From a virus: a stretch of 49,429 nt of DNA. Both the position numbers and the translations under genes were made by a program. The stretch is from the IMG/VR virus record IMGVR_UViG_3300044712_000473, positions 1 to 49,429 of that record. One strand, given 5' to 3'. Positions 9,839 through 44,246 of this stretch are shown here, in pieces (position 1 is the first letter of the stretch; each line of letters begins with the position of its first letter). The notes beneath the pieces are model-generated. The model made no database searches. It was not told the DNA's origin and worked only from the letters and a program-made list of their open reading frames with translations.

Positions 9839-10195
9839 ATGAGAAGTGATGATGACTTGTTGTCGAGGGCCATACTTGGAGCCAAAGTCCAGCAACTCTG
9901 GGGCGAAAAGAGAAGGTATTATCTCTACGCTTGTGGAGAGAGAGCTGATGGAACGCTGGTTTATTCTCCCAATCATTCCGTACAAGGACAGCCATGTCCT
10001 ACTGGTCATGCCGAGGCCAGGGTCGTCAGAAAACTGGGACGACATGGCCGCATTGCAGTCGCTAGGGTACGAAGAGATGGGAGCATCGGGTGTGCAAGAC
10101 CTTGCGAATCATGCCTGTCGCTTCTACACAAAGCCAAAGTAAGAGAGGTGTACTACACAACCAGGGAGAACGAATGGGGAGTAATTCGTTTGTAG
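9839..10195 (+). CDS. Cytidine-deaminase-fold protein, 118 aa
   Basis: The zinc-dependent deaminase signature is clear: HAE at residues 57-59 (zinc ligand H57, proton-shuttle E59) and PCESC at 88-92 (C89, C92), with a helix after each. The length suits a compact single-domain deaminase. Known members act on free cytidine or dCMP nucleotides, on RNA or on DNA bases; substrate cannot be told here. With no thymidylate synthase or kinase genes nearby, a nucleotide-pool role is less certain. GGGGAGG upstream supports the start. Confidence 0.75.
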   Translation: MRSDDDLLSRAILGAKVQQLWGEKRRYYLYACGERADGTLVYSPNHSVQGQPCPTGHAEARVVRKLGRHGRIAVARVRRDGSIGCARPCESCLSLLHKAKVREVYYTTRENEWGVIRL

Positions 10196-10245
10196 GGATA
10201 CGAGAAGTTGCCAAGACCGAAGATCTAATTAAAGGGAACAACAAG

Positions 10246-10428
10246 ATGGACACGACGCAGAAGATCTACATGGTTGCGATTATTGACCGACCGAAGAATG
10301 GTGATCCTTTCATTGTTCTTAATCCTGTTGCGTTTCTTGCCAGTTCAGAATCTAATGCTATCGCCCAGGCTAGTTCGGGCATTGGTAAGATCACTCCCAC
10401 TATGGAGTTCATCGTCCGCCCTTTTTGA
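10246..10428 (+). CDS. Hypothetical protein, 60 aa
   Basis: I prefer ATG 10246 (AAAGGGA upstream). An in-frame ATG at 10174 also has a good GGGAG site but overlaps the deaminase gene by 22 bases. The short protein has a hydrophobic beta strand (IYMVAIID) and a small helix (ESNAIAQASS), and could be a compact alpha/beta domain. Function unknown. Confidence 0.6.
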   Translation: MDTTQKIYMVAIIDRPKNGDPFIVLNPVAFLASSESNAIAQASSGIGKITPTMEFIVRPF

Positions 10429-10437
10429 AGAACCAAC

Positions 10438-10452
10438 TTGATAAAGTATCAA
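10438..10452. promoter_or_regulatory. Palindrome TTGATA-AAG-TATCAA before groES
   Basis: A perfect 6-bp inverted repeat with a three-base spacer lies in the 94-bp gap before the GroES gene. It has the size of a small dimeric operator, and TTGATA could also act as a weak -35 box, though no good -10 sits 17 bases downstream. Function not shown. Confidence 0.4.
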
Positions 10453-10522
10453 ACTGCTGCAGACTTCTAACCGAGAGTTATAGGTCCAAGTTTCATGATG
10501 CACTGAGAAAGGGTGAGATCTA

Positions 10523-10816
10523 ATGCAGGTAATCCCACTTCACGATCGGGTACTTCTGTCGAGAATTGATGATACACCACTCAAGACAGAGGCGGGTATC
10601 CACATTCCAGAGACAGCCAAAGAGAAACCCATGAAGGCTCTCGTTGTAGCGGTAGGAACTGGACGAGTGACCGATGAAGGCTCCATCCTTCCGCTTGATG
10701 TACGGGTAGGAGACACGATTCTCATGGGGAAGTACTCGGGCACGGACATCAAGATTGATGACCAGGAGTACGTCATCATGCGGGAAGGAGAGATCCTGGC
10801 AATCATCCGGAAGTAG
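10523..10816 (+). CDS. groES: GroES-family co-chaperonin, 97 aa
   Basis: It matches GroES in length (97 aa) and layout: LHDRVLLSRID at the N-terminus, a mobile loop around residues 17-35 with the GroEL-contacting hydrophobic triplet IHI, VVAVGTGRV, the roof loop, VRVGDTILMGKYSGTDIKIDDQEYVIMREGEILAII at the C-terminus. GroES caps GroEL during folding. T4 Gp31 and RB49 CocO are phage cases that help fold capsid proteins. No GroEL is present, so it would work with host GroEL. GAAAGGGTGAG upstream supports the start. A second, modified GroES-like gene lies only 300 bases downstream on the other strand. Confidence 0.9.
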   Translation: MQVIPLHDRVLLSRIDDTPLKTEAGIHIPETAKEKPMKALVVAVGTGRVTDEGSILPLDVRVGDTILMGKYSGTDIKIDDQEYVIMREGEILAIIRK

Positions 10817-10831
10817 AACTATAATGGAAGG

Positions 10832-11383
10832 ATGCTAAGACTCTTCCTTCCAGACCAACCGCCTTCCGGCAAGAACTCCATCATCATCACAAAGCAGGGG
10901 CACCGTATCCCAGGCAAGCGTTTCGTTCTGTGGCGAGATAAGATGTTCGAAGCTCTCGACCTACAGATCAGCCGGGATCGGTGCCCTTACTTTACTTCTG
11001 AAGTAGACATAACGATCCATTACCAAAAGGGCGACCTCCGTCGTCGGGATGTACCCGGCATGGAGGACGCCCTTTTTCATTTGCTGGAACGCTATGGTGT
11101 GGTTCCAGATGATAAATTTTTTGTGAATGTTACATGGGTGAAAGGGTGGGCAGAGTATCCTGGGCTTTGGATACAGGTAGAGGAAGCATCACTATCGGTG
11201 CCTGTACCTTGGCAGCCGGCCCCAGATTTACTAGCACTTCGTACTGGTTCACTATCAGCAGATCTTCAGAAAGAAAGAAAGAGTATCCGCAGTGGCCTGC
11301 CCACCCAGCTAGAACTACTCGATCTCCTTCCTTCATCGGCATCGGCTCGCGTAGATCCTTCCAGTAAACGGGCTGGTAAGTAG
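10832..11383 (+). CDS. rusA: RusA-type Holliday-junction resolvase, 183 aa
   Basis: The first ~118 residues match RusA: PPSGKNS (9-15), then RRRD (70-73), E78-D79, GVVPDDKFF (89-97) and a closing strand GLWIQVE. RusA enzymes cut four-way junctions as dimers using conserved aspartates and lysine, here probably D73, D79, D94 or D95, and K96. Phages use them to resolve recombination and replication intermediates before packaging. About 65 residues beyond the usual RusA length have no RusA features and lie antisense to the convergent GroES-like gene (overlap 11130-11383), so the tail may be a read-through without function. TGGAAGG abuts the start. Confidence 0.8.
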   Translation: MLRLFLPDQPPSGKNSIIITKQGHRIPGKRFVLWRDKMFEALDLQISRDRCPYFTSEVDITIHYQKGDLRRRDVPGMEDALFHLLERYGVVPDDKFFVNVTWVKGWAEYPGLWIQVEEASLSVPVPWQPAPDLLALRTGSLSADLQKERKSIRSGLPTQLELLDLLPSSASARVDPSSKRAGK

Positions 11384-11717
11384 CCGGCTCCAGTTCCCCT
11401 ACACGCCAGTCTCCTTTACCGACAGCCAGGACTACTGCTGTGTGGAGATCTCGCTCCCTTGGGTCATAGGTGGCTTCGAGATAGCCCTTCCCGTTGCACC
11501 TGTGGCACTCGACATCTTCCCAACGATTGATGCGTTGGTTGTCCTCTTCATAAATCGGTACGCCAAAACCGCCTTCTCCTTGGCATTGCCGACACGTCTG
11601 CTTCGATACAGCTACGGTTGGGAGTTCGATACCGTCGAGGTAGTGGGTAGGTTTTGGGTCTAGTTTAACCAGAACCCTACCGCCGAGGGGTTCAATCGTA
11701 GTTGGTTCGATGTTCAT
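11130..11717 (-). CDS. GroES-like protein with DnaJ-type zinc-finger insertion, 195 aa
   Basis: The GroES frame is split: EPLGGRVLVKLD (9-20) and a mobile-loop-like segment with triplet IEL (30-32) come first, then TCRQCQGEGG and ECHRCNGKGY, with C42, C45, C71 and C74 in CxxCxGxG form as in the DnaJ zinc-binding domain, then HTAVVLAVGKG (92-102), MKEGDRVVLAG and a GroES-like C-terminus ending about residue 164 plus a 30-residue tail. It lies last in the minus-strand late operon. It may be a GroEL partner specialised for a virion protein, or a non-chaperonin relative. It overlaps the resolvase gene on the other strand. Confidence 0.75.
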   Translation of the reverse strand: MNIEPTTIEPLGGRVLVKLDPKPTHYLDGIELPTVAVSKQTCRQCQGEGGFGVPIYEEDNQRINRWEDVECHRCNGKGYLEATYDPRERDLHTAVVLAVGKGDWRVGELEPATYQPVYWKDLREPMPMKEGDRVVLAGWAGHCGYSFFLSEDLLIVNQYEVLVNLGPAAKVQAPIVMLPLPVSKAQDTLPTLSPM

Positions 11718-12005
11718 TTACTTGCCGTCTTCCTTGCCGCGAAGAAGGCTAAGGCCGAAATGTCCACCCATAGCAGTCACTAGGGCACCAAGAATGGTAA
11801 GGATCTCCTGGATCGTAAGGCCATCCTGTCCATAATCAACAATACCAAGAGTAAGGGCAGCAACCACAGCAAGGGCAATAGGTCCCCAAGGCGAAAGGTA
11901 CTTGTTGAAGATTGCTTCGAGCCACGGAGACTTCTTAATGGCCTGAGTAATTGCATAGATCTTTCCTGCGAGCACTAGGATCGCAGCCCCAATCGGGATA
12001 ACCAT
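11718..12005 (-). CDS. Holin-like membrane protein, 95 aa
   Basis: Three hydrophobic segments, about residues 3-19, 40-57 and 66-86, with short charged ends and a basic C-terminus. This size and topology fit a holin, which opens the inner membrane at lysis. It lies in the late operon right after a secreted protein and two genes after an M15-type endolysin, which supports the role. Sequence family was not recognised. Its start immediately follows the upstream stop (minus strand). Confidence 0.6.
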   Translation of the reverse strand: MVIPIGAAILVLAGKIYAITQAIKKSPWLEAIFNKYLSPWGPIALAVVAALTLGIVDYGQDGLTIQEILTILGALVTAMGGHFGLSLLRGKEDGK

Positions 12006-13014: not shown

Positions 13015-13252
13015 CTTTCATCTCGATGGGACAAAGCCCCGGAGATCTTTCGATCATTACCCTGACCGCAGTCATCGCTTCGGTCACACCACGAATAACG
13101 GTATTCGTTTCATGAATCAGGTTCTGGAGAGCGACGTTCTGCTCTTCCACTCTCTTCGCTAGCACTTCAATCTGCCTCCCGATAAAGTAAAAAGCAATGA
13201 TTACAATAGGGATCTGTGCGCCAATGGTGATCAATTCCTTGAGGTCCAACAC
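12989..13252 (-). CDS. Membrane-anchored coiled-coil protein, 87 aa, GTG start
   Basis: GTG at 13252, overlapping the upstream TAG as TAGTG and preceded by AGGAGG at suitable spacing, is better supported than the in-frame GTG at 13270. A hydrophobic span (ITIGAQIPIVIIAFYFI, about residues 8-25) is followed by a coiled-coil helix. The layout resembles type III holin-like or i-spanin-like phage proteins. Its place next to the endolysin supports a lysis role, still by inference. Confidence 0.6.
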   Translation of the reverse strand: MLDLKELITIGAQIPIVIIAFYFIGRQIEVLAKRVEEQNVALQNLIHETNTVIRGVTEAMTAVRVMIERSPGLCPIEMKDEKETKQR

Positions 13253-16200
13253 TAAATCCTCCTCGCCCACTCTTCAATTAGTTGATCGTGTCGTTCCAAT
13301 TCAGCATACGCCTCGGCTCCAATACGATTCTTCAGGGACTCCTTTAGCTCTGGTGTCATCCACTTGGGAGAAAGCAACCGCTTGCCCATGAGACTCGACC
13401 TAACTTTGTCAGGCTCTCCCGCGCCAACTGCAGCTTTGAGTAGTACATCTAGCTGTTCGTTTGGCGCTCCGTTCTTGAGGGCAACATAAACAGAACGTAG
13501 CTTCTGACGTAGATTCTTTGTCTCATCTGACATGTCCCCAGTCACCTGGGTCCTGATCCCCTTGTCTGGAATCGTATCCCGCCAGCGGTAGTAGCCCTGA
13601 ATCCCACCATCAAGAAGCACGTTCTTTGGTTCTCCTAGCCCCAGAATCGCAAGGGTAGAAGCAGCTGGCCGAGCAGTCATGATTGGAACCTGCGTCTGCA
13701 TGTACTTGATCGACGCAGCAAGAGGAGTCATGTCCTTGTAGATCCCAGTCTTGGTGAAATAATCCTTGACATTGTAGAAGAACCCAAGCCCGTCAATCTT
13801 GCCCAAAGCCCGACGAGCAGAATCTCCCTCGTCAGTTCCGATCGAGAGCATGGCATCTACAGCACCGCCATTCATCCCCTGAAGGTAAAGCACACCAAGA
13901 GACCGGAGCTTGTCATCCTCAAGCTCACTGAAGAAGACAGAGTTTCCTTTCGCCCCCCCAGTCAAAAAATTCCGCAACCCGGCCGCAACCCCAGCGGAGG
14001 CGAGGGTACCAGCGAAGTTCTGCCCGAACAAAGCAGCAGCCGCAGTCCTGTCTTTCCAGCCACCAGTCTGTTTCGAGAACATCTGCTGTAGGAGAGTAAG
14101 CGAGGAGTTCATCTTCATCTGGACATAAGCATCAGCGAAGAAGAGCTTGTTCCAAAATGGATTGTTGGATGCCAGACTACGCTCGGCAGCAAAGGCACCT
14201 GCCCCATTAGTTACCCTGGCAAAGCTCGACCCGGCCATGTCCAAAAGCTTCTCTCGAACCCCAGCCTTGGCTGGAATCTTACCAGTCATGATCCCTACCT
14301 GGGCTTCATCAAACCCAAGAGCGCCAAGCCTAGCCTTGTCCAGCGTTCCAACCTTACCAGCCTGGACATCACCCACAAATATCTTGGCAGCCATGGCAGC
14401 AACCAACTCGTTTATCTCGTTCATTGGTCGGTTGCCGGTGTTGTGCAAAACAAAGTCAGAAACGATACGCCTAAATGAATCAGCCTGCCTTCCACTATCC
14501 GCCATCTTGTTCATGATGTCGTAAGTGAAGTATCCCTCACGAGCCAGGTCGATCCTTGCTTGCTCTGGATCTTTGGCTACTTCCTTAATAGCTTGCTTGT
14601 AGCGATTCCAACCAGCGTAGCTCAGGGTGTTGCCTAGAGTTTCGGGAATGTTCGGGACTGCAGAACGAGACAGCCTGAACGCACGAGATACACTCCAGGC
14701 AGCATCGAACCATTCCATTGCTCGGTAGGCTTTAGTCCCAACATCGGGCCGGTGCCTCTGCCCGAGTGCCGGCAAACCATTCATTGCCCGAACTAGGCTC
14801 TCGATCTCTTCTCTTGCCTCGTGGTTGCCCCCAGAAGCCAAGTCGATCATGGCCTTGAGACTCCATGGCTTGTCTTCCATGAGGGGCTGGTCGGTCATCC
14901 CAACCTTCGTATCCATGGTGTCCTGACCGAACTTGCTGATGAACCCAAGACGAAGAATGTGCTTCTCGGCAAACCTAGTCCAAAGAGTAAATGGATCACG
15001 GTCCATTAGATCAATAGATTCTTTACCTACCATGATCGAGTCAGGCATATTCTCGATCTCTCGCATGAACTCAGCCGAGACACCACGAGTTACGGCCTCG
15101 GACATGTTCTTGAAGTAGCCCTCGATCTCTGCCTCATTCTTGGCTGGGTTGGATTTCTTCAAAGCATCAATCAAAGCCTTGGCAGCAGGGGTTTTTGCAC
15201 CATGGGCAATCTCTTTGACCACATCGTAATAGCGATCATTGAATACCCTTGGAATCTTCATTGCCGTATTGGCTTTATAAGGAGTCCATGCGCCAGTTTC
15301 TGGGTCGTAGATCTTTAGGCCTACCTGCTCACAAAGAAGAGAGATCTTATTCCAAAGTCTCTGCTGAGACTGGACAGCATCGACCGCCTCTACCCCAATC
15401 TGCCCAGTACGCAAGAGTTCTTCTGCCGGAATAAACCCTTCAGCCAAAGCCTTCATTACTGTAATTGGGGCACCATCCCCAATCCTGATGAGCTTCCTGA
15501 GATCCTCGGCAGCCTTCTTGGATTCCTTGGTAGATCCGTTGATCCTAGTCTGAACATCACGAAGTTCTGGGTCGATATGACCACGGACCTTACGACTAGC
15601 GTAGGTTCCCTCAACACCACGAGAAGCGAATTGCTTGGCGTACTTGTTGTCGATCTGGGCCACTCGCTCAAGAAGAGTAGAGTAGAAATACCTACCGAGC
15701 TTTCTTCCCCGTTCGGCTAATCCGGGAACAAATCCAGTCTTCACATCCCAGAGATCCTTGAGACTATCTAGGAAGGGATGGCGCTCTTCGCCCAAGACTT
15801 CAACCAGGTCGGTTCCTTTTTCTTTCGGGCCACGGGAGGGGCCGCGTACCGTCTCAGGGAATTCAGGTACTGCTCCGGATCTTCCCCCATTTGCAGGCGT
15901 ACTTTCCGCACCCGGCGAGCCAGCACCCGTGGAGTCATTACCTGCTGGAGATCCCGTAGCCCCAGTTGCTCCTTCGCTGCCGACGCTTCCGGGTCCAGCG
16001 ATTCCAGGCCCACCCCCAATGCCAATGCCGCGAGCTGCATCTGGGTTATCCTGTGAATCATCGCGATCGGTCGTCCCTCGTCCAGCATCGTTAGCCTTCT
16101 CCTCAGAAATCTGTTTACCCAAAAAGTCCCGCTCGGCTCCACGCTCTTCCTGTAGGTTCCAAGCCGCCCGCAAAAAGTCTTGTCTGTCTTCTTTCCTTTG

Positions 16201-19200
16201 TGCCCCAAGCGGCTCATCTTTACTGTATCTCTCGTAGGCCTCCCTACATCTTTGTTTGTAATACTCAGATAAGCCAGCACCCCACTTCTTGGCTCTAGCA
16301 TTGAGCGACTCCTCTGTATATGGATTGGGAGTCAGACCAAACCCTTCCTCTAGCACAGTACGCATCGCCTCGAACTGATCGGCTCCGACTTCTGGCTTAA
16401 GGATGCTAGGGATATCTCGGAAGTAGTTCATCCGATCTTGAATGTTCTCAAAAATCTTGGCTGTAATTCCAAAGTTATCACCAAAAACCTTGAGTGCTTC
16501 TGGTCCCTTGTCATAAAGATATTTCTCTACAGTATAAGCAAACTTCTCCGCTTGGGCATGAGTAGGTTTCTCGCCAGGAGCTACACCCAAGAAAGAGAAC
16601 ACGGCATCACGATACGTCTGAGCCTTTGATGTTCTCGCAAGGAAGGTCAGATCGTCAAGGAATCCATGGGCGTGTTCGTGAATGAACGTAATGATATCGG
16701 GGGCCTTGCCTGTCTTGGAAAACAGAAGTACCCGACTAGCACCAGGCTCATAAAGAGACATACCCCGGATTCCGTTAGCCTGCCTTTGCGCTTGAACCGA
16801 GAAGAACTCTTCGTCTTCTGCCCGTAGCTTCGACAGATCTCTGCCTTCCAAGAGAGAGAGTCTGCCAGGCTTTAGACCAAGCAAAGAACCTTCTGGGTTA
16901 GAGGATTTGGTTCCAGCGTAGACTAGATCTCTTAGGAAGATCTTCTCCTCATCGCTATTCTCGTTAGCTTGCATCTCTCCAATGACACGCTCGCGAGCTT
17001 CCTTGAGATCCTCCAACTGCTCATCTGTGCGATATCCGTTTGACCCCTCTCTCGAATCAAACAACTCCTCGACTGATTTCTTTTCGGTGCCGGCCGTATT
17101 CCAAGCCTTAAGCGATTGTTCTTTACCAGAAGTAACTTCTTCTTCAGCACGAGCCTCGCGCTTCTCTTGTGCAATCTTCTCGGCAGTATTTCTTACACGC
17201 TCAGAAAACTCTCGATGTAGCCTGAGCTGCTCGCCAGCATGGTTGAAGATTCTAGAGAAGTAGAGCTTGAACGCTGGGTTGAAGTCGACAGCACCATGGA
17301 AGTATCTTTCGTAATACTGCGGGAGACTTTCACCAAAGAGAAGAGCAGAGGCTCTTGCTCTAGAATCCAGGAACTTGGTGATCATGGTGGCAGTCTTCTG
17401 CTGACGACCAGCCTCGGACCCAAACTTGCAAATGGAAAGAACACCCTGAAGAGCAGCATGTGCCCGTTCCTTGGGGCTCATGCTCTCAAGAGCTTCCATC
17501 TTTACTTCAAGAGGGATCGGCTGGTACTGGAGGAACTGAATAATTTCAGACCGGATCTGGCGAAGCATCGTCTCGCGAAGTTCCGCCATCTGGACCATCG
17601 ACCCAATGTGGCCCTTCTCGTCACTCTTCCCCTTGTCGATGGTCAGCTTGTATTTCTTGGATGCTGGATCGTAAACAACCCTGTACTTGATAGCATTCTG
17701 ATCGAAAGAGTTCAGACTATTGAGAAGAGATTCTTCTAGCCTCTTGTTGATCTCCAACATCCTAGTGATCTGGTGGGCGTCAGTAAACCTGTTGACGATA
17801 GAGTTCTCTCCAGCATGTTCCTGCTCAAGTTGACCTTTCTTCTCCGCCCACATCTCGGTAAAACCAGCAGCTCTGAAGTCCTCTTCGGTCAGATTGGCCG
17901 TCTTGATTGCGTCAGTAAGAAGAGCCTGACGCCTGAGCCTGGCGGCATTAGCCTTGAGTGCCCGCTTGGCTTTGGCAGCTTCGGGACCAGTTCCAGCAGC
18001 TAACTTATTCAGCTTGCCGATCTCTTTGCTTTCGAGCCTGGGATTGTCCGCGGCTTCGTGTTCTAAGGCTAGTTTGATTTTGTCGGAATGTGAATAGGTG
18101 GAAGCCAACCACTCAACTTCGCTCGTAACATTGATGCCGAGAGCTTGCGCCACCTTCTCTTCATCAATATCTACGCCACCACTTCGCTTGGCAGTTTCTA
18201 TCTCGCGCACAAGCTCAAGGTGCTGAAGCTCGCTCTTGCTTAGCGGGACAACCCTCTGGTTGTAAGCCTTGTCTGCTCTAGTCTTGGCTTTTAGAAAGTC
18301 TCCAATCGGCCGACCAAGAAGGGTATCACTTTCGAGATTGAATGCCGTGAACCCACGATCTTCAACTACCTGTGCATATCTTTCTTTTGGTGGTAGATGA
18401 CCCCAGAGAAGATTAATAACCTCTGAAGCAAGGTCGTCTTGTGGTGATTTCCCACCAACTTTCAACTGAACCTTTTTGGCAATAGCGTAATTATAGATTC
18501 GGCTAGCAAGATCAAGGGCATCTTGTCGGTCAACAGCTTCATCATGTGGCATGGCGGCCTCTTTGCCGCCGCCGATCATCCTCTCAAAGACTTCATTTTC
18601 TTTTAGGTAGTTCTCTGCCCAGCCGAGTGTTCTCTTGTACGCAGCACCAACAACAGCAAGAACCTGGTTATCTTTCTTTGTACGATCGAGAAGTTGCCTT
18701 GCTGCATCTTCTCTTGTGTATCGCGGTTGGAGCAGTTTCACTTGAGCGCGGGCTTGATCAGGAGCCGATGCCTTGATTGCATCAATAAGTTCATCGGTTT
18801 TCGCACAAGCCAGATCAAGCTCTTCTGGTGTAGCCCCGGATTCTTCTAGAGCTTTCCGCCTTGCGTCCTGGGCTTTCTCTAGCTCATTCAGATCAGCTGC
18901 GAGTTTCTTAAGTGGATCGTATTCGGTCTTGAGAGCAGCGATCTTTGCCGAGACGTCCGCAACCGTACGCTCGTACTCAAGCTGAATCTTCTCGATCCTA
19001 GCTTCACAAGCCTTTGCCTCAGTATCGTACTTGGCTTTGGCTTCTGGGCCACCAGCATCAAAGAATCTACTGGCCACACGGAAGACAGGCTTGGATACTT
19101 TCTTTGCGTAGCGAGTTACTCCCTGCCAGACCGTCCTCGCCCCCTCTACTTTCTTGGCCTCTGCTTGGCGCACAGAGACAAGATGAGACTCGGAAGAGGT

Positions 19201-22200
19201 AATGGTCGTCTCGGGACTTACAGCGCTCTCATCGGCCATCCCAAGGTCAGTAGAGAAGTTATCCGCAAGGATCTGGGCTCGCTTGTCCCCATCCTTCGAC
19301 AGCTCCTTTAGATTCTTAACCTCTTGGTTGAAGGTCTTAGCCGCAAAGTTACCAAGATCCTCAATTGCATCCTCTAGAGTGGGATTGATTACTTTGGTTC
19401 TAGTCACCTCATCCAGAAGTTTCTTCTTGGACTTGGTGACTAGATTCGAAATCTCGCGAGCAGTCTTGGGGCGGTCGATCTCGCCAGAAGTCGCAGCAAA
19501 CGTATCCCTGAGTTTAGTATTGAAGTCAGTAAAGTGACGAGTGAAGATATCCCGGAGTGCGTCGTTTACCGGAAAGGTGGTTCCGGCAATCTCGGCGCTA
19601 GCCAGGATCTCGCTAGCATGACGACCCTGCCGAATTGAATAAGAACGATTAGTCTTGGCTACTTCTAGCCGCTCAGCTGGGGTTAGCTCAGTTGGCGTCT
19701 TTTTCTCAATTGGTTTGGGTTGCTCAGCTGGAATTATGGGATTTAGTCTAACTGGTTCGGGAATTGGTTCTGTCTGAATTGGTTCTGCCGCCTTCACCTG
19801 TCCACGCTTGAGGCGACCGTAAAGAGAATCAGGCTGTTCTAGGCTGGACTGATCAGGCAATCCCCCTGCACCATAATCATTCCAATCCGAGTGGCCGCGT
19901 TCCCTTAAAAGCTCCCTAAATACTTCTCCGGCTCGTTCGATGTCGGATTGTTTGCCGGCATTCTTATGAACCAGTTCAACATATTCCTTGGCATCCTTCT
20001 TCTCTGATGATTCTTCAGGTGTCAGTTGACGGGTCTTTTCAATTTCCGCTAAACGATTTAGCGTGGCCTTGTCCGCTTCATAATCCCAGTCGGGTTCTTC
20101 ACCGTCACCACCATCCTCTGCGCCGCTCTTTCTCAGCCCATACTCTGGATCAGCCTTATCCAAAAGATCCTTGTATGAGATGCCATGTTTCTTGATCAAC
20201 GCAGCAAGTTCCGCTTCTCTTGGGTCTGCATTGGCGACGCGAGGCTTTTCTACAGGCGCCTTCTTCTCTAGTTTGGCAGTTACTTCTTTCGCCTTGGCCT
20301 TAGCAGTTTCCTCTTGCGCCTTTTCTTTTATGCGGCCAATGATCAGCTTCACCATGTTCGCCCGAATAGTATTGTTCTGGAATGCCTTATCGCGTTTGAG
20401 GGTGTCGTCTACATACTTCTCGGTTACTTCCCCTAGACGCTCTGGGGGAATTTTTCCGAACTGGGAAAGAATCCCTTTAACATGATCCGTCAAACGCTGG
20501 CGCTCTTCTGGAGTATCACCAATATTTGACCATGCCGATGTATTCTCTGGGGTTACGACAATATCTTTCCAGCTGGCAATAGCTGGTTTCTTTGGTGGAA
20601 GTGGTACTTCCCCACCAGAATCAAACGCTACCTTTTGCCCAATGTTCGGGGGAACAGGAGCTTGTTCTAATCCAACTGGTCGCTTGGGAGCTTGTGGCGG
20701 AACAGCCTCTTCTTCCATCCCACCAAACTGCTGTCTACCCATGTCATGAGGAGGTTCTGCTTCCTCAACACCAGGAAGAGCGGGAGGCTTCTCGACCAGT
20801 CCTCTGTTCTTCTTGAACGAATCTACCGCATCTTGGGCAGTAGTCCTCATCTTTGTAAAGACTTCCTGATATGCCATTGGAGAAGAATCTTCCGGCTTTA
20901 CCTTGATAGCTTCGATCTTCTTGGCAGCTTCAGGAGCAAGTAATTTCCACTCATCAACCATGTCCGCAAAGTCGGCAGGAGACATGGAAGACTTAGCATC
21001 AATAATAACCGCCTTGCCGTTCTGGGCATCCTGGACTTGTTGCTGTTCCCTGGTCTTCTTGATGGAGTCTCTGCTTAGGTCGTCCTGCTGAGGAGTGGCG
21101 AGAGAAGCCTGTAGTGCTTCGGTCTCAGCAGCTAACTTGGCCGCCTTGAGAGCAACAAAATTATCCTTAGCAGCCTTACGGTCAGCGGCGATCTTCTGTT
21201 GTTCTGCCGCATCTAGCGTTTTGATTCTTTCGTTCTCTAGTGTAATGGTTTCCCTGACACTCTTCATCACGCTAGAAGTAAGCAGATCAGCTTCTGGCTT
21301 GGCGAACTTAGATGCTTGCGCTACCTCTTGCGCCATCTGATAACCAGCTTCGGCCATGACAGAAGGATCACCACCAGAAACCTTGGCCGCCTCACCAGCA
21401 ATCTTCTGGGCAGTCTTTTGGATCTGAGCTTTCACACCGGCTTGTTGTACTGGTGCATACGCTCGATTGACTACCTCTCCGCCAATCGCCATCCCAAGCC
21501 CACGACCAGCAGCACCAGCCAGTTCTTGAGGGTACTGCTCGCTAAGGTACTTGCCCCAGTCTGCATCCCCTGGCTTGGCGGCTTCCCTAATCGGACCAGT
21601 TACAGCTTGCTCGGCAATTGGCCAACCAGCCATTGCCCCAGCCCGAACACCAAGCCCCTTGAGAGGATTCATTTCCTTGGTGAATTCCCCAACCCCATGA
21701 AAGACTTTCCCCATCCCATAGCCACCACCAAACGCAAGACCAGTTTCAAGAGGAGAGATCTCCCCAGTCCCACCCCTTTGTTCTAGCGCACTCTGGCCCG
21801 CCATGACGGCACCAAGGGCAGCAGGGCCGAGCCCCCCCATGAGAGGAAGCATGGCAACCTGAGTCGGGTCTACAGCCATTCCCATCGCAGTCTCGGCAAC
21901 ATTACCAGCGAGGCCACCGATTCCCGCCTTACTTAGCTCCTCTACCTGCTTCTGCTTGGAAGGAAGCCCGTACTTCTGCCAGTCTTGCTGAATACTCTTG
22001 GGCATCAGGCCAGCGACTAGATTGGTAGAAGTCTCCCCGCCCCGCTCGGCAGCAGCAAGGAAGTTATTCCAAAGAGAACCATCAGGAGCAGGACCAGAGA
22101 CGATCCCGTTTCCTGCTACATCCTCTTCGTAAGGAGCATCAATCTGAGTCTGCCCCATCCCGCGAGCCTGGTTCTCCCGAGCTTGTAGACCAGCAGTAGG

Positions 22201-22338
22201 GCCGCCCTTGAGTGCAGCTACTACTAAATCTCCCTCGTCAGTACCACGATTCTCCCAGGCCCATTCGGCAAGAGCGAGCTTGTTAGCTCTAGATGGATCT
22301 TCCCTATACCGCTTGAGTAGCTCATAGCCACTAGCCAT
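13252..22338 (-). CDS. Giant polyvalent/ejection-type virion protein, 3028 aa, with HEHAH metallopeptidase motif
   Basis: Largest gene, nearly one fifth of the genome. It starts with ATG overlapping the previous stop. Features: a Gly/Ala-rich membrane-active-looking segment around residues 150-250, long charged coiled-coil sections, the zinc-metallopeptidase motif H1887-E-H-A-H1891 (plus-strand 16666-16680) in IITFIHEHAHGFLDDL, a disordered Gly/Ser/Pro linker at about 2083-2166, and a C-terminal ~860 residues resembling large-polyvalent-protein (LPD38-like) ends. Such proteins are carried in the capsid and ejected with DNA. It has no recognised RNA polymerase motifs. Its position after three other ejection-type genes supports an internal virion role, which is inference. 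Confidence 0.75.
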   Translation of the reverse strand: MASGYELLKRYREDPSRANKLALAEWAWENRGTDEGDLVVAALKGGPTAGLQARENQARGMGQTQIDAPYEEDVAGNGIVSGPAPDGSLWNNFLAAAERGGETSTNLVAGLMPKSIQQDWQKYGLPSKQKQVEELSKAGIGGLAGNVAETAMGMAVDPTQVAMLPLMGGLGPAALGAVMAGQSALEQRGGTGEISPLETGLAFGGGYGMGKVFHGVGEFTKEMNPLKGLGVRAGAMAGWPIAEQAVTGPIREAAKPGDADWGKYLSEQYPQELAGAAGRGLGMAIGGEVVNRAYAPVQQAGVKAQIQKTAQKIAGEAAKVSGGDPSVMAEAGYQMAQEVAQASKFAKPEADLLTSSVMKSVRETITLENERIKTLDAAEQQKIAADRKAAKDNFVALKAAKLAAETEALQASLATPQQDDLSRDSIKKTREQQQVQDAQNGKAVIIDAKSSMSPADFADMVDEWKLLAPEAAKKIEAIKVKPEDSSPMAYQEVFTKMRTTAQDAVDSFKKNRGLVEKPPALPGVEEAEPPHDMGRQQFGGMEEEAVPPQAPKRPVGLEQAPVPPNIGQKVAFDSGGEVPLPPKKPAIASWKDIVVTPENTSAWSNIGDTPEERQRLTDHVKGILSQFGKIPPERLGEVTEKYVDDTLKRDKAFQNNTIRANMVKLIIGRIKEKAQEETAKAKAKEVTAKLEKKAPVEKPRVANADPREAELAALIKKHGISYKDLLDKADPEYGLRKSGAEDGGDGEEPDWDYEADKATLNRLAEIEKTRQLTPEESSEKKDAKEYVELVHKNAGKQSDIERAGEVFRELLRERGHSDWNDYGAGGLPDQSSLEQPDSLYGRLKRGQVKAAEPIQTEPIPEPVRLNPIIPAEQPKPIEKKTPTELTPAERLEVAKTNRSYSIRQGRHASEILASAEIAGTTFPVNDALRDIFTRHFTDFNTKLRDTFAATSGEIDRPKTAREISNLVTKSKKKLLDEVTRTKVINPTLEDAIEDLGNFAAKTFNQEVKNLKELSKDGDKRAQILADNFSTDLGMADESAVSPETTITSSESHLVSVRQAEAKKVEGARTVWQGVTRYAKKVSKPVFRVASRFFDAGGPEAKAKYDTEAKACEARIEKIQLEYERTVADVSAKIAALKTEYDPLKKLAADLNELEKAQDARRKALEESGATPEELDLACAKTDELIDAIKASAPDQARAQVKLLQPRYTREDAARQLLDRTKKDNQVLAVVGAAYKRTLGWAENYLKENEVFERMIGGGKEAAMPHDEAVDRQDALDLASRIYNYAIAKKVQLKVGGKSPQDDLASEVINLLWGHLPPKERYAQVVEDRGFTAFNLESDTLLGRPIGDFLKAKTRADKAYNQRVVPLSKSELQHLELVREIETAKRSGGVDIDEEKVAQALGINVTSEVEWLASTYSHSDKIKLALEHEAADNPRLESKEIGKLNKLAAGTGPEAAKAKRALKANAARLRRQALLTDAIKTANLTEEDFRAAGFTEMWAEKKGQLEQEHAGENSIVNRFTDAHQITRMLEINKRLEESLLNSLNSFDQNAIKYRVVYDPASKKYKLTIDKGKSDEKGHIGSMVQMAELRETMLRQIRSEIIQFLQYQPIPLEVKMEALESMSPKERAHAALQGVLSICKFGSEAGRQQKTATMITKFLDSRARASALLFGESLPQYYERYFHGAVDFNPAFKLYFSRIFNHAGEQLRLHREFSERVRNTAEKIAQEKREARAEEEVTSGKEQSLKAWNTAGTEKKSVEELFDSREGSNGYRTDEQLEDLKEARERVIGEMQANENSDEEKIFLRDLVYAGTKSSNPEGSLLGLKPGRLSLLEGRDLSKLRAEDEEFFSVQAQRQANGIRGMSLYEPGASRVLLFSKTGKAPDIITFIHEHAHGFLDDLTFLARTSKAQTYRDAVFSFLGVAPGEKPTHAQAEKFAYTVEKYLYDKGPEALKVFGDNFGITAKIFENIQDRMNYFRDIPSILKPEVGADQFEAMRTVLEEGFGLTPNPYTEESLNARAKKWGAGLSEYYKQRCREAYERYSKDEPLGAQRKEDRQDFLRAAWNLQEERGAERDFLGKQISEEKANDAGRGTTDRDDSQDNPDAARGIGIGGGPGIAGPGSVGSEGATGATGSPAGNDSTGAGSPGAESTPANGGRSGAVPEFPETVRGPSRGPKEKGTDLVEVLGEERHPFLDSLKDLWDVKTGFVPGLAERGRKLGRYFYSTLLERVAQIDNKYAKQFASRGVEGTYASRKVRGHIDPELRDVQTRINGSTKESKKAAEDLRKLIRIGDGAPITVMKALAEGFIPAEELLRTGQIGVEAVDAVQSQQRLWNKISLLCEQVGLKIYDPETGAWTPYKANTAMKIPRVFNDRYYDVVKEIAHGAKTPAAKALIDALKKSNPAKNEAEIEGYFKNMSEAVTRGVSAEFMREIENMPDSIMVGKESIDLMDRDPFTLWTRFAEKHILRLGFISKFGQDTMDTKVGMTDQPLMEDKPWSLKAMIDLASGGNHEAREEIESLVRAMNGLPALGQRHRPDVGTKAYRAMEWFDAAWSVSRAFRLSRSAVPNIPETLGNTLSYAGWNRYKQAIKEVAKDPEQARIDLAREGYFTYDIMNKMADSGRQADSFRRIVSDFVLHNTGNRPMNEINELVAAMAAKIFVGDVQAGKVGTLDKARLGALGFDEAQVGIMTGKIPAKAGVREKLLDMAGSSFARVTNGAGAFAAERSLASNNPFWNKLFFADAYVQMKMNSSLTLLQQMFSKQTGGWKDRTAAAALFGQNFAGTLASAGVAAGLRNFLTGGAKGNSVFFSELEDDKLRSLGVLYLQGMNGGAVDAMLSIGTDEGDSARRALGKIDGLGFFYNVKDYFTKTGIYKDMTPLAASIKYMQTQVPIMTARPAASTLAILGLGEPKNVLLDGGIQGYYRWRDTIPDKGIRTQVTGDMSDETKNLRQKLRSVYVALKNGAPNEQLDVLLKAAVGAGEPDKVRSSLMGKRLLSPKWMTPELKESLKNRIGAEAYAELERHDQLIEEWARRI

Positions 22339-36822: not shown

Positions 36823-37800
36823 TTAGGCTCCTACCGAGCCAACGATCCCTCGTGGTTCATAGGCGTCTGCGCTAAATCGCATACGTCCGTAATAACGATG
36901 GACCCAGTTAAGCTTGTCCTCGTCGTTTGCGAAGGTAGGCTTGATCCTCCAGTAGAAGATATATGGCGACTGCTTAGTGTCGATCATATACCATTCCTTC
37001 TGGGTGGCGAGCCACTTCCACTCGATAACCTTCATCTTCCATGGACCCTGTGGCCCCATGATGCCCTTGGTGTTCGAGAACTCGAACGCCTGGTTCATGG
37101 AGTTGAAGATCTTCCAAAAAACAGGTACGAGGTTGGTGTTGCAGAGGATCGTGCTTGGTTCGAGGTCCATTGGTGCCCCAACCCGAGTACGCTGCTTCTG
37201 CATGAGGATGTAGCCAGCCTGAATGGTGCTTGGGCTAGGAGCCGAGGCAGCCATGAGGTTTGACCAAGTGACTACGCTGGAGCCTGCAGTAAGGTCATAC
37301 TTGCCAGGTGCGTAGTTGTGGGAAGCAGAGATAAGAGGAATGGTGGTAGAGACAGGATCAAAACCATAGAGCGTGGTGAAGCTGGAACTAACAATACCCG
37401 CGCAGTAGGACTCGACCCGTCGTGGGAAGACACGGGGAAGTTCCTTCATCCCCTTCTTGCTGATGCCGTAAAGCTCATCCTCAAGAGTCTGCTGAGTGAT
37501 CCGATATCCCTTACGGAATTCACGGTGCCGAGTCTCCTTGACACCCCCCATGAAGATATCTTCAAAATCAGTTCCACCAGCGTCCTCAGCCTCGGTCGCA
37601 AGAGTGAGTCCGCCCCACTCGGTTACAACTTCTGACCGCTTCTCAGACTTCTGAACGTCAAAGATCTGAGTGTAGACATCCTTGGTTTCCTTTAGCTCGT
37701 CACCAAAAACTTTCTTGAACCCTTCGAGAAGAGCCCGAGCGTTCGCAGCAACAGACGCTAGAGGATGAGTTGCGTAGTTTAGATAAAGTGGTGAACTCAT
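36823..37800 (-). CDS. Major capsid protein, Mu/HK97-type, 325 aa
   Basis: The sequence fits the Mu-gpT-like HK97-fold head subunit: a helical N-terminal arm, EKRSEVVTEWGGLTLATEAEDAGG (residues 53-76), central KGYRITQQTLEDELYG, RRVESYCAGIV, then ILMQKQRTRVGAPMDLEPSTILCNTNLVPVFWKIFNS and the closing WKWLATQKEWYMIDTKQSPYIFYWRIKPTFA strand region. It forms the icosahedral shell. The gene order portal, scaffold candidate, decoration candidate, capsid supports the call. Length is normal for this group. Its folding may be helped by the GroES-type proteins, an inference. Confidence 0.8.
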   Translation of the reverse strand: MSSPLYLNYATHPLASVAANARALLEGFKKVFGDELKETKDVYTQIFDVQKSEKRSEVVTEWGGLTLATEAEDAGGTDFEDIFMGGVKETRHREFRKGYRITQQTLEDELYGISKKGMKELPRVFPRRVESYCAGIVSSSFTTLYGFDPVSTTIPLISASHNYAPGKYDLTAGSSVVTWSNLMAASAPSPSTIQAGYILMQKQRTRVGAPMDLEPSTILCNTNLVPVFWKIFNSMNQAFEFSNTKGIMGPQGPWKMKVIEWKWLATQKEWYMIDTKQSPYIFYWRIKPTFANDEDKLNWVHRYYGRMRFSADAYEPRGIVGSVGA

Positions 37801-39709: not shown

Positions 39710-39973
39710 TTATTCCTCTTTCATTCTTAGGACTAGATCTTCAAGTGTTTTCTCAAAAAGAAGGATGCCTTTCTTTTGTCCCTTGATAAAGACATCCATC
39801 TTTTCTGAGTTGTCGAAGTCGTCTTGCGCTAGTGATAGCTCGTCGTGTCGTCTCCTTACGTCCCAAACGAGAATTTGGAACAGCTCATTGGCCAGGAGGT
39901 GGCTGCATAGGTCCTGCCGGTCCTCCTCCTTCTGGGCCTCCCATGGGATTCGGGGCTGGTTGATTTTGAGCAT
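39710..39973 (-). CDS. Hypothetical helical protein, 87 aa
   Basis: The gene overlaps the portal's 3' end by 89 bases when started at ATG 39973. No in-frame alternative start lies outside the portal, so this overlap may be real. The product is highly helical, with QDLCSHLLANELFQILVWDVRRRHDEL and an acidic/basic tail. It could be a small head-completion or assembly partner. Not recognised. Confidence 0.55.
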   Translation of the reverse strand: MLKINQPRIPWEAQKEEDRQDLCSHLLANELFQILVWDVRRRHDELSLAQDDFDNSEKMDVFIKGQKKGILLFEKTLEDLVLRMKEE

Positions 39974-42221
39974 TTGCCTGTGCTGCCTGTTCCTTAATCT
40001 GTTTTACCTGAGCTGCTAGAAGAGTTGGAATTTCAAAACCCATACGTTCATAGATCTGGGCCTGAATCTCTGGGGGAGCCATCTCCCAGTCGAAAGCCAC
40101 CTTCCTTGCAATCTCAGCCTCTAGGGGCGGCTTCTGTTGAGCCTTCTGCTGCTTGGCCTGCTGGATCTCCTGCATCACTTGGTCCTTCTTCTGAGCCCAC
40201 TGTTGCTCAAAGTCAGGCACAAGGGCAGGAGCGCCAGGAAGCTCGAAGGCTTCAGCAATCTGCTTGAGTTGCTTGAACCTGCGAGAGAGCGACTGAACTA
40301 GCTGATCCCTAACCATGTCAGGAGTATCTGGGTTGGAGATCTGACCCATGACCTCGACAAGCTGCTGCTCAGCAGGATCGAGCAGACCCATGAAGTGCTG
40401 AACCGTCTGCTTCCTAAGCTCTGGATTGGCGGCTACGCTGGACGTAACGACCTTGGTCCGATACTTGCCCATCGCATCAACAGGAAGCTCGATACGCTTC
40501 TTGGCTGGAACTCCAGTTTCATCCATGGAAACATAATCAGTTCCCTCTGGCTTGAACTGAAGCTGATTCCAGAACATCATATCGAACGCTTCTTCTAGCG
40601 CCCGTCTCACACAATCTAGCAGAATGTCGAATAGTGGGCTGGAATTGCCAGTACGCTGCCCTGCTCCAGAAGCGGTTTCGCGGTTGCCTCGTTCTCCTTC
40701 CATGCCCGCGAGTGTTCCGGTGACACCGCCAGCCTTCTCAGCGAATTCCTTGAACAACGGAAGAAACTGGAACACAGAGCCACTCGCGTCTCCAAGATCA
40801 AGCCTTTGAACGGAAGCTGGGTCTTCTGAGACGATAATTGATCCCGGCATTGGGTTGTCTTGCTTGCCACGCTGAATCCCCGCATCTGGTTTCTTGATTA
40901 GAGTTAGTAGATTAGCCCAGGTGCCGGCATCAATCCCCATGTTCACCACATCGTTAGATGCGTGTTGCATGTACTTGAGTCGCTGAGCAATGCCCTTACC
41001 ACGGAACGTACCGATTTCATGGAAAGGAGCGCGAACAAATGGACGTTTACCATGGAAGAAGAAATTATACCGAGCAGAAAGAATCAGATCTGGCTCGAAA
41101 TGGCAGACGAAGATGCAGTCTTTCTGTTTCTGGGCGCCACGCTTCTCGTCCTTGAAGTTGAACCGGATATGGATTTCATAAAGCGTAATCCGATTCCCGT
41201 ACTCATTGTCTGGCGTGACTCCACCATCAAACGAAGCAGCACTCTCCTCGTCAATGTAGGAAGAGAAGTCGTTCCTGCTCCTACGTTCATCAACGTCCTT
41301 GAGCTGCTCTAGAACCTTCTTGTCGTATACGCCCTCCTTGCACTTTCGCTGGATCTCGCCCATCGTCTCAGCATACCGATGCGCTACCCAATACCCAGAC
41401 TGGATCTGCTTGGGATTCCCTTCTTCCTCGGGTGGGTAGATGAAGTCTTCAATCTTGATCGTCTCGATGGTATTGCCCTCGTAGACGACTTCCGATTCTT
41501 CAACAATTTCGGGAATACCGATGTTGTCTTCAACGTCAGTTTCCTTGTCGGAAGGCTGGATCTTGTAGCGACAGACGTTACGGGTCTGCGTATCCCACTT
41601 CACCTTGGCGATTCCGATTCCAACCTTGTCCACTTCATGGACAAACTCAGACTCAAACTCTTCTAGCCCAAGAGCGGGATGCTCAAGAATGGAATTCATC
41701 AGCTTCTGGGCTTCGGTCAGTTCTTCTAGTTCGACATCCTGATCTACTGCCGGAATAACCTGAGCTGGCGGTCGAGAAGCCTGAAGTGTACGAACCGTAC
41801 GGGAGGTAACAAGGTCAACATCAGGAGCAATGATCGGCATAGCGATATTGCTGCAACCCACATAGGGCTTGGTCTTTGGCTTCCTGCGCTCGAGATAAAG
41901 ATCTCGATATTCCTTAGTCTCTTCGTTCTTCTTTGCCAGTCCAGAGACTGCTCGACTAACCTCGTCCCTGAGCAGCTTGACGACACGCTTAGTCTCGGAA
42001 TCCGATAGCTGAATATTTTTTACTGGTTCGCCCTTTAAACGTTTCCAGTCCGGCTTCACCTGGTTTACTTGTGATTTTGAAAGAACCAAAGACTCCGGAG
42101 ATAAAGGAGGTTCCGGGACTGGTGGCATTCCAGGTGAGGATGGTGGACCTTGCATAGGCGGCGGCTGGCCAGGTGGTGGCTGTTGTGGTGGCATGGGTGG
42201 CATCGGGGGCATTGGCGGCAT
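39885..42221 (-). CDS. Portal protein, 778 aa
   Basis: Long portal with Met-Pro-Pro repeats at the N-terminus (MPPMPPMPPMPP), then the helical portal body. Sequence hallmarks include YVGCSNIAMPIIAPDVDLVTSRTVR (about 135-160), FYPPEEEGNPKQIQ region, HGKRPFVRAPFHEIGTFRGKGIAQRLKYMQHASNDVVNMGID, and a Gln/Pro-rich C-terminus (PPLEAEIARK...QPPPGQ). It forms the dodecameric ring through which DNA enters. The gene lies after terminase as expected. AAGGAGA upstream of ATG 42221 is a strong ribosome binding site. The extended proline-rich ends are unusual. Confidence 0.75.
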   Translation of the reverse strand: MPPMPPMPPMPPQQPPPGQPPPMQGPPSSPGMPPVPEPPLSPESLVLSKSQVNQVKPDWKRLKGEPVKNIQLSDSETKRVVKLLRDEVSRAVSGLAKKNEETKEYRDLYLERRKPKTKPYVGCSNIAMPIIAPDVDLVTSRTVRTLQASRPPAQVIPAVDQDVELEELTEAQKLMNSILEHPALGLEEFESEFVHEVDKVGIGIAKVKWDTQTRNVCRYKIQPSDKETDVEDNIGIPEIVEESEVVYEGNTIETIKIEDFIYPPEEEGNPKQIQSGYWVAHRYAETMGEIQRKCKEGVYDKKVLEQLKDVDERRSRNDFSSYIDEESAASFDGGVTPDNEYGNRITLYEIHIRFNFKDEKRGAQKQKDCIFVCHFEPDLILSARYNFFFHGKRPFVRAPFHEIGTFRGKGIAQRLKYMQHASNDVVNMGIDAGTWANLLTLIKKPDAGIQRGKQDNPMPGSIIVSEDPASVQRLDLGDASGSVFQFLPLFKEFAEKAGGVTGTLAGMEGERGNRETASGAGQRTGNSSPLFDILLDCVRRALEEAFDMMFWNQLQFKPEGTDYVSMDETGVPAKKRIELPVDAMGKYRTKVVTSSVAANPELRKQTVQHFMGLLDPAEQQLVEVMGQISNPDTPDMVRDQLVQSLSRRFKQLKQIAEAFELPGAPALVPDFEQQWAQKKDQVMQEIQQAKQQKAQQKPPLEAEIARKVAFDWEMAPPEIQAQIYERMGFEIPTLLAAQVKQIKEQAAQANAQNQPAPNPMGGPEGGGPAGPMQPPPGQ

Positions 42222-42669
42222 TGTTTCTCTCCTTAGCTGATATATCCTCTATTAGACCATGTAAGTCAATACTAAGTTCAGCATCATCACTCATTGGGAT
42301 CTTAAGTCTTTGTAGTGCAGCAGCGATGATCAAGTAATGAACAAACTCGATAGGTGGGCCAAAAGACTTGCAAAGGTAGTGGAGATCGGGAAGGTCGGAC
42401 TTGCAGAAGATCCACTCACACGCGCTCTCTAGATGCTTCTGAGGTACTGCCCGCTCGCGTTTCCTGACGTGCTTGTCTGGGTTCTCTAGGTAGTCGACAA
42501 TGGCATTCCTGGCCACCTGTGACCAGAGATAAAGCTCAGGACACTCAGCGTCGTAGGAAAGCTGGCGCCAGTAGACAAAGACGCTACAAAGAGCCTGTCC
42601 TATCCTCCATACCCCTCGGTATCCTTCTGGGTTAGCATAGCGAGCTGAGGGTCGTATTCTCCTGGCCAT
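41989..42669 (-). CDS. Protein overlapping terminase and portal, up to 226 aa
   Basis: The 380 bases between terminase stop and portal start are covered by this frame. The central part (residues about 25-145, with ESACEWIFCKSDLPDLHYLC) looks like a genuine conserved protein. The upstream end, ATG 42669, overlaps terminase by 70 bases and lacks a well-placed ribosome binding site. No ATG, GTG or TTG lies just after the terminase stop, so the true start is unclear. The last ~78 residues overlap the portal's N-terminal codons. The function is unknown. Confidence 0.5.
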   Translation of the reverse strand: MARRIRPSARYANPEGYRGVWRIGQALCSVFVYWRQLSYDAECPELYLWSQVARNAIVDYLENPDKHVRKRERAVPQKHLESACEWIFCKSDLPDLHYLCKSFGPPIEFVHYLIIAAALQRLKIPMSDDAELSIDLHGLIEDISAKERNNAANAPDATHATTTATTWPAAAYARSTILTWNATSPGTSFISGVFGSFKITSKPGEAGLETFKGRTSKKYSAIGFRD

Positions 42670-44246
42670 TCCTCGATCTCTTGGGGAATCTTCTCCCGAT
42701 AAGAAGTGCTCCAGATTTGCGGTTGATAAGCGAACGCGTCCAGCCAGTTGTCTCTGGTCTTACTAGCTGGAAAGATTTTCATTTCGTTATTTGCATCAAT
42801 GAAATCAGGATGGGTGTAGTACATCCCCTCAGCAACGTAGGGAATCATTTGCCTGATCCGGTTGTGCTTCGACCCTTCCGAGACGACCTTAATCGGCTGC
42901 CAAGGTATCCGTACTTTTCCGTACTCTGTCGAGGCGTCGTTGGCTTTCTCATCAATATATAGTTTTGTGGCGAGCTGTTGAGCGTTGGTTTCCATCCCGA
43001 CTCTGGCGATTGGTAGTCCTTTTCGTTCTGACTCCCAGATAACTCGAATAACTTTTTCCCTAAATTCTTGGAGACCAAGACGAAAGATTTTGGAATATAG
43101 GTTAATGCGATATCCTTCTGAATGAGATCCAATAATGCAGATAGCACAATCATCACCCCGTTTCTTTCCGGTGTAGGCTGGGTCCATCGTCATGGTTCGA
43201 TAGAGGTCCCGCTCATCAATAGGGATCTGGGAACCATCTGGTTGATTGAGAAGAATCGTGTAGTCCTTACCACGGGTCCACTTTCGTGGGATAGGGAACT
43301 CGACCACCTTCGCATCAATGGGGTTGTTGAGATGCTGGAACGCAAAGAAGTGCCCCATGTTCTGAGCTTCGTACCCGCGCTCCATCTCCTTCAACACTTC
43401 AAGATCAAACCTGTCGTCCCAGATCGCTTCGCCATTCTCGATGGCCGATCGCTTGAGACAGACGTACCTTGGATCTCCTTCTGCCCTAAACACTAGCTCA
43501 CTTGTGTATTGCTTCTCCTCCCCCATGATCGTTCCGCACAAATCGTCTACTGCCCATCTCGTTGCAGTCTGAGTGATCGTACTTTTCTTGGGATGGTTAA
43601 GTAGAGCCTGACAGCCAGCGTGCATGGAGAATACTTTTCGTGCTGCCTCTACCGACTCGGATGCTTCCTTGGCGTAGATGTCATCTAGGTAGATCCTGTC
43701 AAAGTGTCCCGACACCAGCTCCGTCTTGACTCCTGCGTAGTTGAACGTTCCCTCTGGTGCGTCTACGATGCGCGGAAGAGTTTGTGCCTTGATCGTCCAA
43801 CGCTCTGCTTCGTTCTCTGCGATCCTGACTTCCGGAAAGACGTGGCGAATGATTTGATTCTTCATTGCCATCGCCCGGATCTGCTCCGAAGCGTTTCGTA
43901 CTAGATCCTCTGTGGACATGACGAGAAGAATACGTTCGTCATGATTCCTCAGATAATCCAGAAAGATCTTAGCGCGTTGAATCCAAGACTTGATGAAGTC
44001 TCGGGGCATGAGGGCTAGTTTGTATTGGTTCTCGTCATCATCCAGAAATTCCGTATAGAGCAGATGAACCTTTGGAGCCAGATCGTGATAGCCGCAGAAG
44101 AACTTACAGAAGAAGTAGAGTGACCAATATCTTTTCTCTACAACCATTTGCCGAAGCCAGTCCACGTCGGACTGAAGCATCGACCCATACTTGATGATCT
44201 TCAGACTCTCTCTAATTTGACTTGCTTGAATCTTTGCTTCGCTCAC
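42600..44246 (-). CDS. terL: Terminase large subunit (TerL), 548 aa
   Basis: Full-length, with a degenerate Walker A-like PRDFIKSW (81-88), Walker B IYLDDI (185-190) and the RNase H-like nuclease start MTMDPAYTGKKRGDD with D355 and D365-366. The ATPase drives DNA into the portal and the nuclease cuts concatemers. It follows the small-terminase candidate and precedes the portal, the usual order. The GTG start at 44246 follows GAGGTG. The Walker A lacks the standard G-K-[ST] tail, as in several phage terminases. Confidence 0.8.
   Translation of the reverse strand: MSEAKIQASQIRESLKIIKYGSMLQSDVDWLRQMVVEKRYWSLYFFCKFFCGYHDLAPKVHLLYTEFLDDDENQYKLALMPRDFIKSWIQRAKIFLDYLRNHDERILLVMSTEDLVRNASEQIRAMAMKNQIIRHVFPEVRIAENEAERWTIKAQTLPRIVDAPEGTFNYAGVKTELVSGHFDRIYLDDIYAKEASESVEAARKVFSMHAGCQALLNHPKKSTITQTATRWAVDDLCGTIMGEEKQYTSELVFRAEGDPRYVCLKRSAIENGEAIWDDRFDLEVLKEMERGYEAQNMGHFFAFQHLNNPIDAKVVEFPIPRKWTRGKDYTILLNQPDGSQIPIDERDLYRTMTMDPAYTGKKRGDDCAICIIGSHSEGYRINLYSKIFRLGLQEFREKVIRVIWESERKGLPIARVGMETNAQQLATKLYIDEKANDASTEYGKVRIPWQPIKVVSEGSKHNRIRQMIPYVAEGMYYTHPDFIDANNEMKIFPASKTRDNWLDAFAYQPQIWSTSYREKIPQEIEEWPGEYDPQLAMLTQKDTEGYGG

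Follow-up and report, generated by a model that had tools for sequence, protein, structure and literature searches.

Co-chaperonins of the GroES/Cpn10 family (PF00166) share a split barrel and a mobile loop with a G-I-x-L-P motif, and one of them, T4 gp31 (phrog_931, 1g31), is a phage co-chaperonin tied to head formation, which matches phrog_931 ('head morphogenesis') at E 3.7e-50 and which is not known to carry a zinc domain. It is essential for the folding of the T4 capsid protein gp23, and it has a mobile loop of 22 residues compared with 16 in GroES as well as an altered lid (PMC6318259). Cpn10 still forms heptamers when its mobile loop is replaced by foreign peptides (PMC5118791), and an enlarged lid of the Cpn10 family is found in chloroplast Cpn20/Cpn23 (7ekq). 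In a different class of chaperone, the zinc domain of DnaJ holds two zinc ions and takes part in binding polypeptides (PMC4428491), and the DnaJ-like zinc protein BSD2 assists the assembly of a chaperonin client by stabilising an intermediate (PMC5859369). Here we describe GroES-2, a protein of 195 residues encoded in the IMG/VR virus record IMGVR_UViG_3300044712_000473, the whole 49,429 bases of which were analysed (the window). Like GroES, GroES-2 has the split barrel and the loop motif, but its mobile loop contains a putative zinc insert of about 51 residues and its roof segment is longer. It differs from T4 gp31 in having no match to phrog_931, from Cpn20/Cpn23 in being enlarged by this insert and not by tandem Cpn10 domains, and from DnaJ and BSD2, with which it shares CxxCxGxG motifs as an inserted hairpin, in having two motifs instead of four and no J-domain (no Pfam match, neither in GroES-2 nor in the family described below).

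In the initial annotation two GroES genes had been recognised in the window, and both do match Pfam Cpn10, the standard one of 97 residues (GroES-1) over its full length (Table 1). GroES-2 is about 30% identical to GroES-1 and passes the Pfam cut-off on its N-terminal half alone (24.1 bits versus 21.1, E 3.8e-5). When the insert was removed in silico the score rose to 35.3 bits (E 1.2e-8), with an alignment spanning the junction. Using a hidden Markov model (HMM) built from other phage GroES only, the spliced protein reached 27.5 bits versus a shuffle maximum of 10.2, and the halves before and after the insert each outscored all scored shuffles of their own. Judged from its sequence, GroES-2 is a Cpn10 barrel split by an insert. 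Its synonymous codon usage was uninformative.

The insert carries the motifs CRQCQGEG and CHRCNGKG, spaced 29 residues apart and both following GIELP. This bears out the earlier reading that C42, C45, C71 and C74 stand in CxxCxGxG form between the hydrophobic triplet of the mobile loop and the next strand. Two such motifs occur in no other open reading frame (ORF) of at least 60 residues in the window and arose in 0 of 100,000 shuffles of GroES-2. Taken alone, the insert matches Pfam DnaJ_CXXCXGXG (PF00684) with 17.8 bits (E 0.004), which is below the curated cut-off of 32.7, and with two CxxCxGxG only it lacks the four-motif pattern of the DnaJ central domain.

To find relatives we searched phages and plasmids using tblastn and scanned viral and bacterial genome contigs with sequence patterns, and no close relative of GroES-2 was detected in either. 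Where pattern scans for a zinc insert in the same, C-terminal loop arm matched, the matched site was never a GroES, with the limit that they covered the glycine codons GGC and GGT only and were not exhaustive. From 50 relatives of the window's terminase large subunit (TerL) nine are accompanied by a Cpn10, in none of which a zinc insert was seen. Divergent GroES proteins are recurrent in phages with window-like terminases (L098:13067-13576 and L096:1231-1797, one with an N-terminal extension of about 60 residues and one very diverged, and also L095 and L097). On a further contig, G014, a free-standing ORF of 88 residues with a CxxCxGxG pair and a plain GroES share one strand and lie about 0.7 kb apart (L088:1450-1713, L090:1465-1980), possibly the kind of arrangement from which a zinc-GroES fusion could arise.

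A GroES HMM applied to the ORFs of loci found by the zinc-motif pattern led to a GroES with four CxxCxGxG motifs on contig L114, the gene lying elsewhere on the contig than the pattern match, and a second pattern scan added three more. A search with the alignment of these four yielded 35 viral contigs, the four included (L172-L206, the Zn-GroES family), and these at least 35 phage contigs encode 31 distinct proteins at 90% identity with a mean pairwise identity of 44%. Pfam recognises Cpn10 in 34 of the 35 proteins, and 27 match its DnaJ zinc domain (E up to 0.01; the match reported in full for one member is below the curated cut-off), and eight of them match phrog_931, the PHROG of T4 gp31. 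Every member except L202, which has one motif pair as in GroES-2, contains four CxxC pairs and with them eight or more cysteines. The zinc domain occupies the N-terminal loop arm, between DEF[RK]SGYE and a GG-hydrophobic motif (GGIHIP). Bacterial genome contigs yielded no member of the family.

The L172 protein was modelled from a 35-row alignment, giving a predicted local distance difference test score (pLDDT) of 80, with most barrel blocks at 89-95 and the zinc blocks at 86-88. Foldseek matched the model to GroES (8wuw), Mycobacterium tuberculosis Cpn10 (1p3h), T4 gp31 (1g31, E 1.6e-4; a match by the barrel only) and BSD2 (6ekc, E 1.5e-3), and the family profile found Cpn20/Cpn23 (7ekq) as the best match among PDB sequences, and also GroES, DnaJ (1exk) and BSD2. 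With fair confidence, the predicted structure of a family member contains both barrel and zinc domain.

By the features tested GroES-2 is outside the Zn-GroES family, with its insert after GIELP and its gene not beside TerL, though it is of similar build. MAFFT overlays the zinc regions, as would fit one common insertion site, but Pfam and hhalign place GIELP before the zinc motifs, and one common site is therefore not our preferred interpretation, though both inserts might still share an origin, with the loop motif shifted later. The novelty appears to lie in a domain insertion, previously undescribed, in a GroES/gp31-type co-chaperonin, isolated in its layout in the window and forming a sizeable family of another layout elsewhere. 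The initial remark that no phage pair with such a zinc-finger insertion is described holds in so far as the open-access papers searched do not mention any zinc finger inside GroES, but the case is not isolated, as at least 35 other phage contigs encode GroES with DnaJ-type zinc domains, usually in the other loop arm and with four CxxC pairs.

The family is linked to head genes. In 34 of the 35 contigs the zinc-GroES gene is followed within about 2 kb on the same strand by TerL and then by the portal, and where the contig reaches that far, genes for a scaffold and a head protein come after the portal. The head protein, where matched, is homologous to that of the window in 17 of these loci (phmmer). 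In phage vir526 (BK063670), which has the same type of head protein, a plain groS without a zinc motif occupies this place, upstream of TerL, the portal and the head protein, which is homologous to that of the window. As Zn-GroES genes are nearly all found beside head-building genes, they may encode custom folding lids for phage shell proteins. A capsid protein as client had also been suggested initially, next to a possible change of GroEL partner, and the head-operon position of the family supports the capsid client, without position being a proof.

These observations suggest a model in which the Cpn10 barrel of GroES-2 would form a seven-fold lid on host GroEL and grip it through the retained IEL of its loop motif. 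Host GroEL would be the partner because no GroEL is encoded in the window or in the 20 Zn-GroES contigs examined. The DnaJ/BSD2-type zinc hairpin would sit in the same mobile loop, so that a heptameric lid would carry seven of them around the rim where it meets the cage, most likely in contact with the phage head protein during folding or release. GroES-2 would thereby parallel T4 gp31 serving gp23, with an added client-binding element. Zinc binding, heptamer formation, GroEL binding, the head protein as client and late expression are all predictions of this model, and we give about even chances to GroES-2 being a phage co-chaperonin that works with host GroEL and acts on head proteins through its zinc hairpins. 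A broader version, to which we assign somewhat less than even chances, is that GroES of phages with the window's head type acquired zinc domains of the DnaJ/BSD2 type several times over, some in one or the other arm of the mobile loop and some in the roof hairpin. The lid would then be both a cage cap and a client-binding chaperone dedicated to phage head proteins on host GroEL.

Several points weigh against this model. The exact layout of GroES-2 is known from one sequence and no homologue with the same layout was found; its insert has two motifs only and is located in the loop arm opposite to that of the family, and inferences from the family may therefore not all transfer to it. GroES-2 itself does not adjoin TerL but is found at the opposite end of the late cluster, and L206, the sole exception in the family, has its gene (9944-10516) among replication genes after a MazG-like ORF. 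Among the relatives of the window's TerL, the type of head protein shows only a loose association with the presence of a GroES (7/27 vs 2/23). The AlphaFold model of GroES-2, made from a four-row alignment, reached a pLDDT of 44, with M. tuberculosis Cpn10 as top Foldseek match at a weak E of 0.015.

Instead of contacting a client, the zinc domain might act as a rigid spacer or adaptor that lengthens and orders the mobile loop for a particular host GroEL or raises the dome. The longer loop and altered lid of T4 gp31 (PMC6318259) would fit such a role, as would the hydrophobic stretch that the family retains next to its zinc domain. However, the inserted domain is of the DnaJ/BSD2 type, which is linked to polypeptide binding, and all eight cysteine columns rank with the best conserved positions in the family proteins. 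Moreover, three members (L195:2998-3771, L203:4950-5681 and L205:5061-5732) carry an extra CxxCxGxG pair inserted into the roof hairpin, at a distance from where GroEL is contacted; they belong to three separate subclades, and three changes are required on the best tree, with moderate support. We consider a mere spacer unlikely.

The presence of two Cpn10 genes in one phage also allows for mixing of GroES-2 with GroES-1 into hetero-heptamers as in the chloroplast Cpn10/Cpn20 system, with the zinc hairpin at some lid positions only. Arabidopsis Cpn10(1) is reported to function only as hetero-oligomer with Cpn20 (PMC4242682), and it is the chloroplast Cpn20 and Cpn23 chains that the family profile matches best. 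Yet no clear second GroES was present in the 20 Zn-GroES contigs examined, many of which are fragments, so that the family seems not to need one, and the window with its plain and zinc GroES is unusual for this reason. In addition, GroES-1 and GroES-2 are encoded on opposite strands in apparently early and late clusters. We regard mixed rings as rather improbable. Least probable is a role of the zinc pairs as redox or metal sensor of the lid, as thiol oxidoreductase on the client or as zinc regulator reusing the Cpn10 fold, for although CxxCxGxG modules are found elsewhere in phages, for instance in Q-like antiterminators, GroEL-binding motif and barrel are retained and the family is linked to head genes and not to regulators. 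We thus favour the lid with client-binding zinc hairpins.

Apart from the two GroES genes the window encodes a terminase, a SU10-type portal with adaptor, a major head protein, a DnaB-type helicase, an exonuclease and a RusA-like resolvase (Pfam/PHROG) and no tRNA. GroES-1 is located in the plus-strand cluster of nucleic-acid metabolism, shortly after a deaminase-like ORF of 118 residues (9839-10195, plus strand; Pfam dCMP_cyt_deam_1, 24.2 bits, cut-off 25). GroES-2 is the last gene of the minus-strand, presumably late cluster, which holds the structural genes, and its start codon abuts the stop codon of the preceding ORF, a small hydrophobic one for which Pfam and PHROG gave no family match. 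The C-terminal extension of the RusA-like gene overlaps the 3' part of GroES-2 by 254 nt in convergent, antisense orientation. The late cluster also holds an ORF of 3028 residues (13252-22338, minus strand), which had no Pfam match and no relatives in a scan of viral contigs with its last 499 residues.

Table 1. Position of GroES-2, its predicted parts and selected other genes in the window.
Feature	Coordinates	Strand	Evidence and remarks
GroES-1, ordinary Cpn10 of 97 aa	10523..10816	+	Pfam Cpn10 E 2.2e-30, end to end; PHROG co-chaperonin GroES E 6.5e-24
RusA-like Holliday junction resolvase	10832..11383	+	PHROG RusA-like E 1.6e-5, residues 43-119
GroES-2 (Zn-GroES), 195 aa, ATG start	11130..11717	-	predicted split Cpn10; TAAATG junction with upstream ORF
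C-terminal half of barrel, about residues 92-167, with long roof-loop segment	11217..11444	-	phage-GroES HMM score above all scored shuffles; PHROG GroES at 123-161, weak
Putative zinc insert, about residues 41-91 (~51 residues), C-terminal arm of mobile loop	11445..11597	-	Pfam DnaJ_CXXCXGXG, insert alone
Zinc motif 2, CHRCNGKG (C71, C74)	11484..11507	-	
Zinc motif 1, CRQCQGEG (C42, C45)	11571..11594	-	
N-terminal half of Cpn10 barrel and mobile loop, residues 8-40	11598..11696	-	best stretch of Pfam Cpn10, 8-40
GIELP, predicted GroEL-binding motif of mobile loop, residues 29-33	11619..11633	-	hhalign alignment to GGIHIP of the family
Small hydrophobic ORF	11718..12005	-	directly upstream of GroES-2; holin-like by eye
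Major head protein	36823..37800	-	PHROG major head protein E 1.8e-9; matched by phmmer in 17 contigs with Zn-GroES; proposed client
SU10-type portal	39885..42221	-	Pfam SU10_portal E 3.8e-19; same Pfam family as portal of L114, a Zn-GroES phage
Terminase large subunit (TerL)	42600..44246	-	PHROG E 1.4e-47

GroES, a partner protein of high conservation, engages GroEL through its mobile loop. The natural insertion of another chaperone's zinc domain into this very loop, in dozens of phages and beside their head genes, would offer a testable system for the specialisation of a lid to a single client, and Zn-GroES proteins may serve as ready-made natural designs for client-specific co-chaperonins.
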